Virus record (IMG/VR): IMGVR_UViG_3300035670_000930
Span: 1 to 30,825 of that record
Direction: 5' to 3' (one strand)
Origin: a virus
Length of the DNA: 30,825 nucleotides
A program made the position numbers and the translations under genes. Shown here piece by piece: positions 3,889 through 29,107 of the stretch. The notes below the pieces were generated by a model, which was not told where the DNA came from, searched no databases, and saw only the letters and a program-made list of their open reading frames with translations. The stretch's first letter is position 1. Every line of letters begins with the position of its first letter.

Positions 3889-4092
3889 TTATCGCCACAT
3901 GGCGATTTCCTGGAGCCGGTCGAGACGCCTGCGATCCGGTTCAATCCAGTGGTTCACGCGGTCAACCAGCCATTTCGGCCCTGCCCATTCCGGCAGCTTT
4001 GTCCCGGTGCCGCGCATGACCAGCAACACGACTCCAAGGTCCGCGCCAATGGCTATCGCGACAACCAGAACGTAAGTGAGCATCTCAACCAT
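3889..4092 (-). CDS. small single-pass membrane protein
   Basis: A 67-residue protein with one hydrophobic segment at about residues 5-26, then a Trp/Arg-rich cytoplasmic-type tail (PKWLVDRVNHWIEPDRRRLDRL). I chose the ATG at 4092 because GGAG lies 5 bases before it inside the end of the upstream gene; an in-frame TTG at 4113 is less likely. It overlaps the preceding 129-residue gene by 8 bases and is the last gene before the terminator at 3791-3822. Function unknown; placement at the end of the late operon suggests a role in lysis or host-cell modification. Confidence 0.65.
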   Translation of the reverse strand: MVEMLTYVLVVAIAIGADLGVVLLVMRGTGTKLPEWAGPKWLVDRVNHWIEPDRRRLDRLQEIAMWR

Positions 4093-4474
4093 ATGCGCTC
4101 CTGCGGCCTGCAAGCGCGGCTAGAAACATCATCTGCCCGTAGGCAATCATGGTGACGTAGTTGTAGTAATTCATCGCCAGCCCTGCCCCGCGCTCGCTTG
4201 GAAGGATGCCAAGCCAAGCCGCCAAAGCAAGGTTCGCCATGACGCCGGACAGGACGCCAAGCACCACGCCAGTCAGGCGGATCGAGAACCAGACGAACGA
4301 GAAGATCGCGACCATGTAGATGGTCATGGCCACGGGAAAGTTGCCGCTGAATATGGCAACGCCGCCCGCCTGCAACACCAGCACCATGGCGGCGGCCATG
4401 TCGCGGTAATCACCCTTGCGGGCGACGTGAATGCAGGTCAGCACGAGGGCCGACCAAAAGGCGATGACGAACAT
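4085..4474 (-). CDS. multi-pass membrane protein
   Basis: A 129-residue, very hydrophobic protein with about four predicted membrane segments (residues ~2-18, 27-45, 48-88 as two, and 105-122) and few charges. No family recognised. Its start shares one base with the stop of the preceding gene (TAATG) and it overlaps the next gene by 8 bases, so it belongs to the late operon tail. Candidate functions are holin, holin antagonist or superinfection exclusion; the sequence does not separate them. Confidence 0.65.
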   Translation of the reverse strand: MFVIAFWSALVLTCIHVARKGDYRDMAAAMVLVLQAGGVAIFSGNFPVAMTIYMVAIFSFVWFSIRLTGVVLGVLSGVMANLALAAWLGILPSERGAGLAMNYYNYVTMIAYGQMMFLAALAGRRSAYG

Positions 4475-4734
4475 TACTTGCCGCCCGGATCAGCCTTTGT
4501 GATCGCAAATTCGGCCATGGCGTCATGCGCTTCCTTCATTGCCGACGCCGCCTGCCCAAGCGAGAAATGAACGTTGCCCATGGCCTCCGAAACATCGGCG
4601 GTCTTGTACGGCGAAAGCGTAGATTGCGCAGCGTGGTCAATGGCAGCACGGGAAAGCGCAACGGCAGCATCGATTGCCTTGGCGATGCGCCTTTCGGTCA
4701 CGGTGAGCAATTCCCGGATATCAGCTTCGGCCAT
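4474..4734 (-). CDS. hypothetical helical protein of the late operon tail
   Basis: An 86-residue, Ala-rich, almost wholly helical protein (helices about 3-40 and 48-76) with no Cys, no membrane segment and no motif I recognise. Its regular amphipathic pattern suggests oligomerisation. It starts 2 bases after the stop of the 4737-4991 gene and runs into the 129-residue membrane protein (TAATG), so the three are co-expressed. Confidence 0.6.
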   Translation of the reverse strand: MAEADIRELLTVTERRIAKAIDAAVALSRAAIDHAAQSTLSPYKTADVSEAMGNVHFSLGQAASAMKEAHDAMAEFAITKADPGGK

Positions 4735-4736
4735 TG

Positions 4737-4991
4737 TCAGTCTCCTATGGTGAAGGGTTCGGTTCGCATTTCCGGCAAGTGCCGGATAATGCCATAGCCA
4801 AGGTCAATGCCTGGCGATGAACGAAGGTAGCACTTGCCTGAAAGCGGGACAGGTTCGGTGTATGCCCACGGTGCGCCAAAGAATGCTGTGCGCGGCGGCG
4901 CGTTGTCGAACGCTTCCGACTGTGTGCTGTAGAGCAGGAACTCGCCCGTGGGTAGTGTCTCAGTTTGAAAAAGACGGTGATTGAAATGCAT
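4737..4991 (-). CDS. hypothetical protein; probably the 3' part of a late gene cut by an insertion
   Basis: Read from its first ATG this is an 84-residue protein of unknown family (core TGEFLLYSTQSEAF, ending HLPEMRTEPFTIGD). I suspect residues 1 to about 14 are not native. The late operon resumes at 6453 with a well-signalled start (ATGA overlap, GGGAGG site) for a protein beginning MIDWRK that is cut off after seven codons at the edge of a transposase remnant. Joining that start to the TGEFLLYS segment here would restore one gene and the unbroken overlap pattern of the operon. Whether the shortened form is expressed is unclear; no good ribosome-binding site precedes 4991. Confidence 0.5.
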   Translation of the reverse strand: MHFNHRLFQTETLPTGEFLLYSTQSEAFDNAPPRTAFFGAPWAYTEPVPLSGKCYLRSSPGIDLGYGIIRHLPEMRTEPFTIGD

Positions 4992-5028
4992 ATCACTGCC
5001 ACATTCAACGCCCTATATGCAGCACTAG

Positions 5029-5066
5029 TGCGAACTGCGACAACCATTCGTTTGCGGTTCGTAAAC
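5029..5066. promoter_or_regulatory. inverted repeats over the -35 box of the toxin-antitoxin promoter
   Basis: Twelve bases at 5029-5040 pair, counting G-T wobbles, with 5052-5063. A second, overlapping dyad GTTTnCGnnnCGnAAAC occupies 5050-5066, directly over the -35 box. Both are placed as an operator for an autoregulated toxin-antitoxin operon would be. The protein that binds, if any, is unknown. Confidence 0.4.
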
Positions 5067-5081
5067 CTGTATGCATATAAT
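5052..5081 (+). promoter_or_regulatory. promoter of the toxin-antitoxin operon
   Basis: TTGCGG (5052-5057), an 18-base spacer and a perfect TATAAT (5076-5081) predict a start near 5088 and a leader of about 50 bases to the ATG at 5137. A GACTC (GANTC-type) site lies at 5084-5088, at the start point. Confidence 0.6.
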
Positions 5082-5136
5082 CCGACTCTATCCACTGAGG
5101 GAGCTTTCCCACTGGAAGTGTCGGGGAAGGTGGAAA

Positions 5137-5349
5137 ATGGCCAAAGGTCCAAAGGGCGAGAAACGGCCTGCCGACTTGATCGGAATGTCGGTGATGGTCG
5201 CAAAGATCGCGACAGGCGAAATCCAGGACAATCAGAAATCCGGCAGGGTCCGCTCTGGCAAAGCCGGAGCGAAAGCGCGCGCGCAGAAACTCACCAGCAC
5301 CGAACGGAGCGAGATTGCGCGCAAGGCAGCGAATTCGAGATGGGAGTGA
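5137..5349 (+). CDS. small basic protein, first gene of the Panacea operon (candidate DNA-binding partner)
   Basis: A 70-residue basic protein: MAKGPKGEKRPAD opening, a short hydrophobic turn (VMVAKIATGE), a Gly/Ala/Lys-rich middle and a C-terminal helix ERSEIARKAANSRW. The last motif recurs in many small bacterial proteins often annotated as regulators or histone-like; I cannot assign a precise family. I chose the ATG at 5137, which has a GGGGAAGG site, over upstream in-frame codons. Its stop shares a base with the Panacea start (TGATG). Position and charge suggest it binds the dyads in the promoter or takes part in neutralisation, as an extra component of the system; this is inference. Confidence 0.65.
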   Translation: MAKGPKGEKRPADLIGMSVMVAKIATGEIQDNQKSGRVRSGKAGAKARAQKLTSTERSEIARKAANSRWE

Positions 5350-5834
5350 TGGCAACAAGCGCAGCAGCAGTAGCAAATCAATTCCTTCGCTTAGCGAAGG
5401 AAGATGGTATGTTTATTGACCAAATGAAGCTTCAGAAGCTTTTGTTCTACGCACAGGCGTGGATGCTTGGTATAATGGGAACTGAACTGTACCCGGATGA
5501 CATTCACGCATGGGAATGGGGTCCTGTCATCCCAAGTGTTTACTATCAAACGCGCAAATTTGGGCGGCAACCAATTACTGAAAATATCAAGGCGCTTGAC
5601 TCCAATGGGGTTTGGGTTTCGCAATATCCAGAAACTCCAGATGTTTTGACACATATTAAGAGGGTATGGGACATTCACAAATCACTTACTGGCATTCAGC
5701 TTTCGAATGCCACTCACGCGCCCGGCGAACCTTGGGATATTGTTAAAAATAGCTACGGTGGAGATTTGTCTACTAAGCCTAATATCCCAACGCCGCTGAT
5801 CGAATCTGTTTTTCGGGAAAAAGCGGCCTCTTAA
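5349..5834 (+). CDS. Panacea-domain (DUF4065, SocA/GepA-like) antitoxin
   Basis: A 161-residue protein that shows the DUF4065/Panacea pattern clearly: KLQKLLFYAQAWML (27-40), then ELYPDDIHAWEWGPVIPSVYYQ (46-67) and the helical C-terminal half. The family includes Caulobacter SocA and phage GepA, and the domain is known to act as a versatile antitoxin for unrelated toxins. The ATG at 5349 follows GGGAG and shares a base with the previous stop; an ATG at 5340 is an alternative. The toxin candidate starts 5 bases after the stop. Base composition is much more AT-rich than in the phage genes, a sign of transfer. Confidence 0.85.
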   Translation: MATSAAAVANQFLRLAKEDGMFIDQMKLQKLLFYAQAWMLGIMGTELYPDDIHAWEWGPVIPSVYYQTRKFGRQPITENIKALDSNGVWVSQYPETPDVLTHIKRVWDIHKSLTGIQLSNATHAPGEPWDIVKNSYGGDLSTKPNIPTPLIESVFREKAAS

Positions 5835-5839
5835 ACAAT

Positions 5840-6187
5840 ATGGTTTCGATCAAACCGCCTTCCAATCCATCCCCAATACCTGACAAGTACACGGAAAAGG
5901 AGCCAGTAGACCAGACCGGGCCCAAAGCGCCCGGGCGTGTTTTCCTTATTAATTTTGGATTTGTAAAATACGGCTCTACTGACAAAGCGCATGGGGCGGC
6001 AGTATTGCTCAGCTTGATATTACTGATTATTATTTTAATTGTGATTTGTATTGGCTTCAAAATTGGATTTTCACCATGGTTGGACCGAGTTTTTACTTGG
6101 CTAGGTAGCGCTTTTTTGTTTCTTGCCGGGGTCGCTGTAGGGAGGTCCCCTCCATCAAACGAAAATCAAAATGAAAAAAATGCTTGA
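5840..6187 (+). CDS. two-TM membrane protein, candidate toxin of the Panacea pair
   Basis: A 115-residue protein with a Pro-rich hydrophilic N-terminus (1-50), a long hydrophobic segment (about 52-74, Leu/Ile-rich), a second at about 84-101, and a short Asn/Lys tail. It follows the Panacea gene by 5 bases in the same operon and shares its low GC. Panacea antitoxins are known to pair with varied toxins, including small membrane proteins that damage membrane potential; this one has that size and topology. No enzymatic toxin motif is present. Toxicity is inferred from gene order and topology only. Confidence 0.65.
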   Translation: MVSIKPPSNPSPIPDKYTEKEPVDQTGPKAPGRVFLINFGFVKYGSTDKAHGAAVLLSLILLIIILIVICIGFKIGFSPWLDRVFTWLGSAFLFLAGVAVGRSPPSNENQNEKNA

Positions 6188-6218
6188 TATTACAGAATAG
6201 GCATCCTATCTATCGAGT

Positions 6219-6432
6219 ATGGCAAACGTACTCGACACCAAGACCCGTGCGCAAATCCTCTCCATGCTGGTTGAAGGCGCATCGATGCGTTCTGTCAGTC
6301 GCATAACTGGCGTTTCAATCAATACGGTTTCCAAGCTGCTGATTGACGCTGGCAATGCCTGCGCAGAGTACCATGACAACACGGTGCGCGACGTAGCAGC
6401 AAAGCGCGTCCAGTGCGATGAAATCTGGTCAT
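6219..6432 (+). pseudogene. IS1-family transposase, N-terminal remnant
   Basis: The first about 72 residues read as an IS1-type transposase: MANVLDTKTRAQILSMLVEG, a helix-turn-helix (SMRSVSRITGVSINTVSKLL) and VQCDEIWS, where the first catalytic Asp of the DDE domain lies (DEIW). After DEIWS the similarity stops. The frame stays open to 6686, but that part is antisense to two phage membrane-protein genes and is not transposase. The DDE domain is missing, so it cannot transpose. No convincing ribosome-binding site precedes the ATG. The break at about 6433 coincides with the restart of the phage late operon. Confidence 0.75.
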
Positions 6433-6453
6433 TATCTTTCGCCAGTCGATCAT
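6433..6453 (-). pseudogene. 5' stub of a late gene cut by the insertion
   Basis: An ATG at 6453 overlaps the stop of the 59-residue gene by four bases (ATGA) and has GGGAGG seven bases upstream. It opens a frame MIDWRKI whose continuation to a stop at 6319 is only the antisense of the transposase remnant. I read it as the true start of the gene whose remainder is at 4737 to about 4948. Confidence 0.5.
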
Positions 6454-6629
6454 TTCTTGCCTCCCGGCAGAAGCGACGACAGGTCAACTCCCCAAAGCAC
6501 GGCGGGCAGGCCAAGGATGTAGACAGGAAGCTCCTTGAAGGCGACGTGCACCACAACCAGCCCGACGAAAAGGGCTATGCCGATTGCGAACTTGACGCGC
6601 TCAAAGGTCCATCGGGATTCATCGCTCAT
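6450..6629 (-). CDS. small membrane protein of the lysis region
   Basis: A 59-residue protein: charged start (MSDESRWTFERVK), a hydrophobic segment at about 13-29, a short amphipathic turn, a second hydrophobic segment at 35-50 and a GGKK end. No family recognised. It overlaps the upstream 56-residue gene by 11 bases, and its stop overlaps the next (disrupted) start at 6453. The size suits a holin-associated protein, but there are several similar candidates beside it. Confidence 0.65.
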   Translation of the reverse strand: MSDESRWTFERVKFAIGIALFVGLVVVHVAFKELPVYILGLPAVLWGVDLSSLLPGGKK

Positions 6630-6789
6630 TGGCTCGCTCCCGCCGCCGCGTCAGAACCCGTGCAGCGAGATAGGCGGCTGCCATGATCACTGCCGCGCCA
6701 AGCCAGTAATTCAACTGCCCAGCGCTTACAGCCCGATTGCAGCCGTAGATGATCGCAAAAGAGCATGCGGCTATCAGCGTGTTGCTCAT
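6619..6789 (-). CDS. small membrane protein of the lysis region
   Basis: A 56-residue protein with hydrophobic segments at about 4-17 and 26-45 and a strongly basic C-terminus (TRRRERANER), as expected for a two-pass membrane protein with its C-terminus inside the cell. Its start shares one base with the stop of the 121-residue gene (TAATG). I place the start here because an upstream in-frame extension would run through most of that gene. No family recognised. Confidence 0.65.
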   Translation of the reverse strand: MSNTLIAACSFAIIYGCNRAVSAGQLNYWLGAAVIMAAAYLAARVLTRRRERANER

Positions 6790-7154
6790 TAACGCCCTCT
6801 TGTCGCAACGGTGAGAAAGAAGAACCCAACGATAACGCCTTGCAGCGTCCATAGTTCGACCGGGAGCGTGTCGGTACGGCCTTCCGTCCACGCCCCAAGC
6901 ACTTTGTCCCACACAATGAGTTTCCAATTGTAGATGATGAACGGCGCAGCCCATATCGCTTGGACGTACAGAACGATCCGATCCGCCGAACGCATTGCCT
7001 CAACACGTCCTTGAAGCTGTGCGATCTTGATATCCGCCTCAAGCTTTTCGGAATCCGTTTCGGCCTTGGCGCGGATTTCCTGCCATCGGTTGATTTGCTC
7101 ACCGATTGCTGAAATGCCGCCGCCTGCAAGCCACCTGAGGATGGTAGCGATCAT
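6789..7154 (-). CDS. holin-like membrane protein
   Basis: A 121-residue protein with a short hydrophobic N-terminus (1-17), a coiled-coil segment (about 20-57, EIRAKAETDSEKLEADIKIAQ), a hydrophobic stretch with aromatic residues (about 62-82) and a last hydrophobic segment (about 104-118). The layout (amphipathic or coiled N-half and two membrane segments at the end) recalls the holins encoded beside endolysins in alphaproteobacterial phages and gene-transfer agents. It overlaps the 67-residue gene by 4 bases. Holin is the best guess, but the 67-residue neighbour is an equal candidate. Confidence 0.6.
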   Translation of the reverse strand: MIATILRWLAGGGISAIGEQINRWQEIRAKAETDSEKLEADIKIAQLQGRVEAMRSADRIVLYVQAIWAAPFIIYNWKLIVWDKVLGAWTEGRTDTLPVELWTLQGVIVGFFFLTVATRGR

Positions 7155-27945: not shown

Positions 27946-28025
27946 GCTGCACCGCCTTGTTCGCCAGTGACGAACCCGTAAAACCTCAGGTCATGGCGGC
28001 GGCGCATATCGGCTTGCAGCGTCAT
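27942..28025 (-). CDS. tiny coupled gene, 27 residues
   Basis: A 27-residue basic frame (MTLQADMRRRHDLRFYGFVTGEQGGAA) that fills the space between the clamp gene and the Cys-rich gene. Its ATG shares a base with the clamp stop (TGATG) and its stop overlaps the next ATG by four bases. Both junctions are of the kind used in the whole operon, so translation is likely. The product may matter, or it may only serve coupling. Confidence 0.45.
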   Translation of the reverse strand: MTLQADMRRRHDLRFYGFVTGEQGGAA

Positions 28026-29107
28026 CACACCCTCATCGGCATGATGGTGATGGAAAGCGGGTGATTATCGGCAACCATCAGCGCCGGATCGCTTGGCCCG
28101 GAAACAAACATGGTGACCGTTTCGCAGCCGCGAAACGCGTTGAGGGACAAAAGAAGATATGCGGCTGAAAAACCGAACTCGGGCATCTTGCCCATGTTTG
28201 CGGACAGGATGACCGGAAGCGTTTCCTTCCAGTCGATCCGTTCAAACGTGTAAAATGTCCCGGAAAGAGAAGCTTCCCCGCTTCCGACCTTGAACTTGAC
28301 CGGCTTCGCACTTGCCCCCTGGTGCGCGTGGTAGATGCGGGTCAGTGCCAGCCGCCAGGTTGCGATGTCAATCGTGAACCACTGGTCTCCCGCCGCAGGC
28401 ACAACCCGCCTCCAGTTGGGATATGTGCCGTCGATCAGCCTGCTGCTCATCGTTATGCCCGGCCACTTGGCGCGCATGTACTTTTCGCCCGTGCCGATCT
28501 CGTCGGGCGAAACCTTGCGCGACAGCATGTAGTCGACGGCGAAACTTGGCACGATCCTGCCGTGCAGCGCCTCGACCGCAGGCATTCGCCAACTCGCCAG
28601 CATGCGGCCATCGGTGGCAACAGCGAGCGTGCCGTCACCGTCAGCCTCGAAGTAGACGCCGTTCAGATAGTACCGCGTGTGCTCGCTCGAAGCCGCAAAG
28701 CCGACGCCGCGCAATGCAGCGATCAGGTCGATGTTGTGGCACTTGCCCCAGTTTGGCACTTCCGCATTGTTGCCAAATACTGGATTGTCGCCAATTTGCG
28801 ACCCGAACCGGTAATTGCTGCCATTGAAGGTCACGTTGACGGCATCGCCGCCCGAGATGGTGATGGTTTCATCGCCCGGCACATACCGGATCAGGTTACG
28901 CAACTGGCGCGCGTTGATTGCGCCTTCAAACCCCGATTCCATCGCCGCGATATCAGCCACGACCTCGATATCCAAATTGGTTCCGCTGATCGTGTTGCCC
29001 CCAAATCGTACCTGTGACAGCGCCGGAATAATTGACCGCGACGGGACGACAGGAGCGACCACCGCAAGAGTTTGCATCAGATCGGATGCCTTGATTTCCG
29101 TTTTCAT
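28025..29107 (-). CDS. dnaN: DNA polymerase III beta sliding clamp homologue
   Basis: A 360-residue clamp. The bacterial beta-clamp pattern covers the whole length: start KTEIKASDLMQTLAVVAPVVPSRSIIPALSQVRFG, the centre YYLNGVYFEADGDGTLAVATDGRMLASWRMP, SSRLIDGTYPNWRRVVP, and the standard end ITIMPMRV. The clamp encircles DNA and tethers the polymerase, so a phage copy would load the host polymerase onto phage DNA. It is a little shorter than host DnaN (about 370) and quite divergent. Good GGAAGGA site before the ATG. Its start overlaps the 47-residue gene (ATGA). Confidence 0.85.
   Translation of the reverse strand: MKTEIKASDLMQTLAVVAPVVPSRSIIPALSQVRFGGNTISGTNLDIEVVADIAAMESGFEGAINARQLRNLIRYVPGDETITISGGDAVNVTFNGSNYRFGSQIGDNPVFGNNAEVPNWGKCHNIDLIAALRGVGFAASSEHTRYYLNGVYFEADGDGTLAVATDGRMLASWRMPAVEALHGRIVPSFAVDYMLSRKVSPDEIGTGEKYMRAKWPGITMSSRLIDGTYPNWRRVVPAAGDQWFTIDIATWRLALTRIYHAHQGASAKPVKFKVGSGEASLSGTFYTFERIDWKETLPVILSANMGKMPEFGFSAAYLLLSLNAFRGCETVTMFVSGPSDPALMVADNHPLSITIMPMRV

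Follow-up and report, generated by a model that had tools for sequence, protein, structure and literature searches.

How does a plus-strand block carrying a toxin–antitoxin gene pair and a piece of transposase come to lie inside the minus-strand late operon of a phage? The question is raised by the IMG/VR virus record IMGVR_UViG_3300035670_000930, a single record of 30,825 bases whose entire length is called the window here. That the window is phage DNA follows from the PHROGs profiles matched by its structural and lysis proteins: they name a portal protein (E 7.6e-130), a terminase large subunit, a major head protein, a head closure protein and an endolysin, as well as a DNA polymerase processivity factor. 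The main result is the identity of the insert: it is a truncated copy from a group of cargo-carrying transposons that are mobile and low in copy number. Very probably, a transposon from a divergent subgroup of IS1 entered a minus-strand reading frame of the late operon and was truncated later. A sequence-only reading of the window had proposed that a toxin–antitoxin/IS1 insert splits one late gene; it was right about the insertion, and the single split gene is unproven.

The block from 4951 to about 6433 reads as one cargo-carrying IS1-like transposon that lacks its right end. Its left edge is a terminal inverted repeat of 20 base pairs (bp), GGTAGTGTCTCAGTTTGAAA (4951..4970, plus strand), identical to the left repeats of two intact elements, one on an Acidiphilium plasmid (locus L008) and one on a Hoeflea plasmid (L009), both with an 8-bp target duplication; thus, the insert begins exactly at a transposon end, and the phage/transposon boundary lies at 4950/4951, sharper than the edge near 4949 that had been claimed. 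Inward from the repeat follow, all on the plus strand, the genes for a small basic accessory protein (5137..5349), a SocA/Panacea-domain antitoxin (5340..5834), a small membrane protein (5840..6187) and a truncated IS1-like transposase (6219..6433) that keeps about the first 72 of 293 residues. A chromosomal locus, L013, has the identical order of left repeat, small accessory gene, Panacea gene, small membrane protein and transposase (its ends have one and three mismatches, and it has no duplication). Because of this shared order, the pair and the transposase are to be seen as parts of one transposon: both are foreign, as had been said, but the toxin–antitoxin pair does not stand beside a separate IS1 remnant. 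A composite of unrelated pieces was also considered, and it is disfavoured by the intact relatives. The transposase piece is 88.9% identical over 72 residues to the IS1-family transposase of the Hoeflea plasmid, where the cargo is RosmerTA-like; the next closest transposase is that of L013 (87.5%), with Panacea and membrane-protein cargo as in the window. A DNA search also matched the accessory-gene region of the Acidiphilium plasmid, about 1.5 kb from its transposase and on the same strand. The G+C content of the insert (1,483 bases) is 48.2%, vs 57.5% in the rest of the window.

At the right edge, DNA identity to four relatives is 77–82% over the 215 bases to 6433 and 22–32% over the next 60, so similarity stops inside the transposase gene; the right junction, at about 6433/6434, is where it had been placed. 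With the right end and most of the transposase gone, the window element cannot move by its own transposase. The same loss weighs against reading the block as an insertion: the event is read from the left end alone, no target duplication is demonstrable in the window, and the 8 bp to the left are not repeated in 6381–6900, which is expected if the right end was deleted. The transposon would have brought the accessory gene, the Panacea antitoxin/small membrane protein pair and the transposase into the late operon; a later deletion or one-ended event would then have cost the element its right repeat and about three quarters of its transposase, and the phage some of its DNA, and this loss of the right part may have fixed the cargo in the phage.

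What has the insert done to the late genes? Inspection of the window sequence confirms that a foreign block breaks the minus-strand late chain. On its upstream side lies a late gene of 59 codons (6450..6629, minus strand), an open frame with two hydrophobic segments by hydropathy; after it a new start (ATG at 6453, GGGAGG upstream, an ATGA overlap with the 59-codon gene) opens MIDWRK, the surviving 5′ end of the interrupted late gene (6434..6453, minus strand). On the other side, phage coding sequence picks up at 4949 with TGEFLLYST (4737..4950, minus strand) and stays open for about 70 residues to 4737; the overlapping chain then goes on with genes at 4474–4734 (86 residues) and 4085–4474 (129 residues), so that the genes downstream of the insert now sit behind foreign DNA of opposite orientation. 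The 84-residue frame at 4737..4991 (minus strand) is a fusion: its first 14 codons are coded by the transposon left end read outward, and their product, MHFNHRLFQTETLP, is thus neither phage protein nor a phage gene start. The opposing promoter ascribed to the block is suggested by gene direction and found no further backing: a consensus scan of 4700–6700 gave no excess of promoter-like sites (2, vs a mean of 1.6 and a standard deviation of 1.6 in shuffles).

If the window element can no longer move, do its relatives? Four plasmid loci (Acidiphilium, Hoeflea, Methylocapsa and one more), read for their ends, have 20-bp inverted ends that enclose passenger genes, with exact 8-bp duplications in three (AAGCCGAG, GATGATTG and CGCTGGTG) and none in the Methylocapsa element. 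These four, with the best 80 loci each from genome-contig and virus-contig searches using four transposases, make up a group of 164 loci. Paired ends, with at most four mismatches each, are present at 134/164 loci, and 108 of the 134 have an exact 8-bp target duplication, a count raised somewhat by the end-pairing script, which favoured pairs with a duplication where several were possible. Removal of three duplicates leaves 131 elements of 1,323–5,556 bp (median 3,115; mostly 2.2–4.3 kb): 105 have an 8-bp duplication, 26 have none, and no other duplication length was found. In the Sphingopyxis sp. PET50 chromosome, an identical 3,316-bp element is present at two sites (L064:3319-6634 and L065:3319-6634) whose duplications differ (CGGAGCCG vs CAATGCGC); it has therefore moved recently, as a unit with its cargo. 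The group is widespread and low in copy number: at E 1e-40 or better, partial matches counted, it matches 33/387 genomes of a class-level sample, mostly once per genome (range 1–4), and 7/199 genomes of a family-level sample, the centre genome being included in both. Judged from the relatives of its transposon, the phage probably has an alphaproteobacterial host. A plain, cargo-free insertion sequence (IS) was not seen in the clade, the shortest paired loci being L147 (1,651 bp), with an accessory gene, and L129 (1,323 bp), with an altered partial one. In the Acidiphilium plasmid, the intact element is immediately adjoined at its right end by a RES/Xre-type toxin–antitoxin pair (L008 6339–7177).

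The cargo that the window element brought consists of two adjacent genes. The 164-residue Panacea protein, whose gene overlaps the end of the accessory gene, matches Pfam SocA_Panacea above its cut-off (E 8e-15) and NCBIfam SocA at 1.3e-25, yet below that model's cut-off. Five bases further on begins the gene for the 115-residue membrane protein, with a strong hydrophobic segment at 53–71 by hydropathy; its position and this segment make it probably the toxin of the pair. Like the PanAT pairs with membrane toxins described in the available text of PMC8832971, the window's Panacea antitoxin adjoins a small protein with a hydrophobic segment; unlike them, its partner matches no named toxin family above cut-off in profile scans that included NCBIfam. 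The Panacea genes of L013, L100 and L127 are likewise followed by a small protein with hydrophobic segments. The small protein after the Panacea gene of L102 has no such segment.

Across the group, cargo is often RosmerTA-like, P63C, ATPase, NYN or Panacea, and appears defence-like by profile match. In 126/131 elements there is a frame of 300 bases or more before the transposase, and in 45/131 one of 240 or more after it; the frames were picked mechanically as the longest non-overlapping ones, and some are not genes. Among the Pfam families listed for the 130 longest frames, one from each element, are HTH_3 (36), Peptidase_M78 (ImmA/IrrE; 34), P63C (18), AAA/nSTAND models (7–8), an SDH-type protease (6), DNA methylase (4) and Panacea (2); a further 127 frames gave NYN (6), Panacea (4), PemK (2) and Abi_2 (2). 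With PADLOC models, the 25 of 221 families listed for the longest frames include RmrA (27–28) and PD-Lambda-2_B (13), and those for the further frames RmrT (up to 6) and HEC-09 (5), which makes RmrA-like proteins the commonest class among the scanned cargo frames. The ImmA-domain protein RmrA is the antitoxin of RosmerTA, a phage defence system with one phage-borne case, as stated in the accessible part of PMC10440598. Does cargo descend with the transposase? On a FastTree transposase tree, the cargo of the 74 elements in five named classes (57 “other” elements left out) requires 37 changes, vs 34–43 (mean 39.0) in 60 label shuffles; cargo class is therefore nearly independent of transposase descent at this resolution. 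A point on the other side is that elements with closely related transposases have cargo in common more often than those whose transposases are distant: the two members of a pair have a common cargo cluster in 11/25 pairs at >90% transposase identity, in 28/141 at 80–90% and in 159/1,332 at 70–80%.

Could the toxin–antitoxin pair and the IS1 remnant have come separately, a phage-borne pair next to which an IS inserted and decayed? Panacea pairs are often encoded near transposase genes, as the available text of PMC8832971 has it. But the left repeat precedes the accessory gene instead of lying beside the transposase, the order is that of the group, with a frame before the transposase in 126/131 elements, and L013 has the same Panacea and membrane-protein cargo, all of which makes separate arrival highly improbable. 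A different doubt attaches to the right junction, which assembly could have created by joining the end of a host contig to a phage contig, the window being a single public record and a second copy of the junction not having been seen. Assembly chimeras usually need a longer shared word, whereas this break falls inside the transposase with few shared bases at the site; moreover, on the left the block stops exactly at a transposon terminus, and the chain of phage genes is consistent on either side. A chimera is thus unlikely, and insertion of a single transposon with later loss of its right part is preferred to both alternatives.

Two further questions concern the phage. Insertion into a late-operon reading frame stands, but that MIDWRK and TGEFLLYST belong to one gene has not been proven, since no intact relative was found: the two could be the ends of different genes, at least one gene having been lost from between them. 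With the right end and phage DNA of undefined length missing, the two flanks may not originally have adjoined each other; in addition, the genes after the endolysin vary among the four record regions compared. On the other hand, the genes of the chain are short and one short gene would suffice, and neither version has positive evidence, so that two genes come only a little short of an even chance. Searches for the TGEFLLYST fragment gave no relative in a viral-contig scan, in 6 records of endolysin or portal relatives (0/6) or in 31 further portal relatives (0/31), and this absence is weak evidence because no positive control accompanied so short a query. Endolysin relatives are present in 10/31 of the portal-relative records (the endolysin search itself gave one locus); relatives of a 67-residue gene occur in three fetched loci, none with the fragment. 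A nucleotide search of phages matched 28 records, the best 20 of them over 119–126 bases within the phage's own endolysin gene, and among these 20 of 28 matches listed nothing in the insert was hit. As to the cargo, the phage might have kept the pair as a superinfection-exclusion or defence module, as would suit two cargo frames that are open despite a destroyed transposase and a group whose commonest cargo, RosmerTA, is phage defence with a phage-borne example (PMC10440598, in its accessible part). Open frames are equally expected after recent insertion, however, the closest Panacea protein to the window's among 134 elements is 34.7% identical, and no second phage with the block was seen; retention for a benefit is therefore possible yet rather doubtful, next to the pair being a neutral, recent hitchhiker on the truncated transposon.

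The small accessory gene is a conserved feature of the group. The window copy encodes a basic protein of 70 residues with net charge +9 (a longer start at 5071 is possible); in the group, the gene sits between left end and transposase, and its product has a consensus start M(P/A)KGPxGxKRPADVIG and end KGGKARAxxLTPERRxEIAxKAAxxRW. Counted strictly (at least 70% of the profile, on the transposase strand and before the transposase), it is full-length in 129/134 paired elements, and any match, partial ones included, is found in 133/134: the match is partial in L107, L125 (where it is on the opposite strand), L129 and L150, and L166 has no match. The flanks of the loci (893,328 bp) hold one match, partial, and none full-length. 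Among the 30 unpaired loci, 19 have a match, full-length in 18; of the 11 without one, L035, L047, L049, L060, L074 and L096 have their transposase near a contig edge; the other five are L123, L130, L140, L145 and L171. Since the profile had been refined with these very elements, 35 further places from genome searches, some in genomes already sampled, were examined and served with the flanks as controls; six were duplicates, leaving 29 new loci. Ends are paired in 27/29, with an 8-bp duplication in 21 of these, and the accessory gene is full-length in 27/27, on the transposase strand in 25 and on the opposite strand in 2. The two unpaired loci are L291, with a partial match, and L297, with none, whose contig starts 140 bases before the transposase. 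The two inverted copies, still within the ends, lie at 2489–2815 of L282 and 2886–3197 of L284 (transposase strand taken as plus). Larger cargo proteins of a P63C-containing cluster (L012, L018, L029, L051, L054, L100 and others) start with a KGGxARAxxLSPERRxEIAxKAA-like motif similar to the one that closes the accessory protein, as though the two kinds of protein had a short domain in common.

A second recurrent feature, ATGCTT-N6-AAGCAT, is carried by part of the group and has two typical places, one about 65 bp inward from the left end and one about 42 bp upstream of the transposase start. In the 131 elements, the exact palindrome (spacer 5–8) has 32 copies near the left end, 27 ahead of the transposase and one elsewhere; the flanks (873,969 bases) have no exact copy and 8 with one mismatch. 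The spacer is usually 6 (101/121 sites), and sites with at most one mismatch sit 39–48 bp before the transposase. The window has only ATGCTTGATATTACAGAAT (6180..6198, plus strand), 39 bp upstream of the transposase, a weak candidate for a degenerate copy that departs from ATGCTT-N7-AAGCAT at two positions. Near the transposase start, TTGACGCTAAGCATAAAAGTTCATATATT recurs (L012 at about 4960–5000, and many others) and stops a few bases short of the ATG; it has the look of a promoter, overlapped by the palindrome, from which the transposase would be transcribed as a leaderless mRNA. An RNA hairpin is another possible reading of the left palindrome copy, since CCTAT often precedes it (30 sites).

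What, then, may the small protein do? Its charge and its helices suggest DNA binding: an AlphaFold model (51 rows) has a mean predicted local distance difference test score of 83.5 and three helices (14–26, 36–51 and 54–69). An operator common to both palindrome sites and bound by a small protein would explain the pattern, and the accessory protein may accordingly regulate the element, possibly via the palindrome at its two places, close to the left end and overlapping the transposase promoter; exchangeable toxin–antitoxin or defence cargo would reward the host for keeping the element. Several results speak against such a scheme. With a spacer of 6 and at most one mismatch, the palindrome is present near the left end in 53/131 elements, before the transposase in 45/131 and at both places in 35, and in the new elements in 11/27, 10/27 and 9/27, respectively, with 2 sites in their flanks (161,717 bases); both places are thus occupied in about a quarter to a third of elements, and most elements are without a good copy at one or both. 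The predicted template modelling score of the accessory-protein model is low (0.38), and the protein has no solved relative by sequence and none convincing by fold (best E 7.7). The protein matches no Pfam or NCBIfam family above cut-off.

Is the group a known one? Like the IS1 family, it has ends that begin GGT and short target duplications; three of the four plasmid records annotate an “IS1 family transposase” and the fourth a helix-turn-helix (HTH)-domain protein. Two intact relatives pass the Pfam DDE_Tnp_IS1 cut-off (E 3e-07 and 1.1e-06) and score 67 and 59 with NCBIfam IS1, below its cut-off of 100. IS1 itself is shorter than 1 kb, vs mostly 2.2–4.3 kb in the group, which also differs in its single-frame transposase of about 290 residues and in nearly always having an accessory gene and cargo. 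Transporter IS (tIS) are IS derivatives with passenger genes (PMC9330008 and PMC7986276, in the text available); the group resembles them in its IS ends, its transposase and its passengers, genes with other functions that travel along with the element, as in Sphingopyxis, but not in its near-universal non-transposase gene or its exchangeable, often defence-like cargo, and no IS1 example was among the matches listed in the literature searches. Toxin–antitoxin cargo has been described as integral to Tn3 transposons (PMC7157771, in its accessible part), and the group also carries such cargo as part of the element; its transposase and ends differ from those of Tn3, its cargo exceeds toxin–antitoxin pairs, and no resolvase is among the Pfam families listed for it (25 of 57 and 22 of 22). 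To RosmerTA (RmrT/RmrA) the group is linked by RmrA-like proteins, its commonest cargo, although the window element does not carry them. In a full-text literature search, with ISfinder and most subscription papers outside its scope, none of the matches listed described a group of IS1 type that combines defence cargo with a small gene present in nearly every member.

These comparisons leave about evenly balanced the proposal that the group is undescribed: a widespread set of compact cargo transposons (about 2–5 kb) in which a small DNA-binding protein would act in transposition or its regulation at twin palindromes, cassettes would be swapped faster than the transposase diverges, and elements would serve as vehicles of immune genes in Alphaproteobacteria and also onto phages. 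Mobile elements are believed to spread much of bacterial immunity; to our knowledge, small single-transposase vehicles with well-defined ends have rarely been described for it. The group offers exact ends, an 8-bp duplication, a core gene that passes no Pfam or NCBIfam cut-off and often defence-like cargo, and with them a simple rule for finding new defence candidates (GGTAGTGNNTCAGTTTGAAA, accessory gene, transposase); it also raises the question of what role the near-universal small protein has. Elsewhere in the window, the processivity factor (28025–29107; phrog_947, E 1.1e-44) and a plus-strand frame at 50–793 that matches a PHROG of no assigned function (phrog_2045, E 1.4e-94) can be placed by profile.

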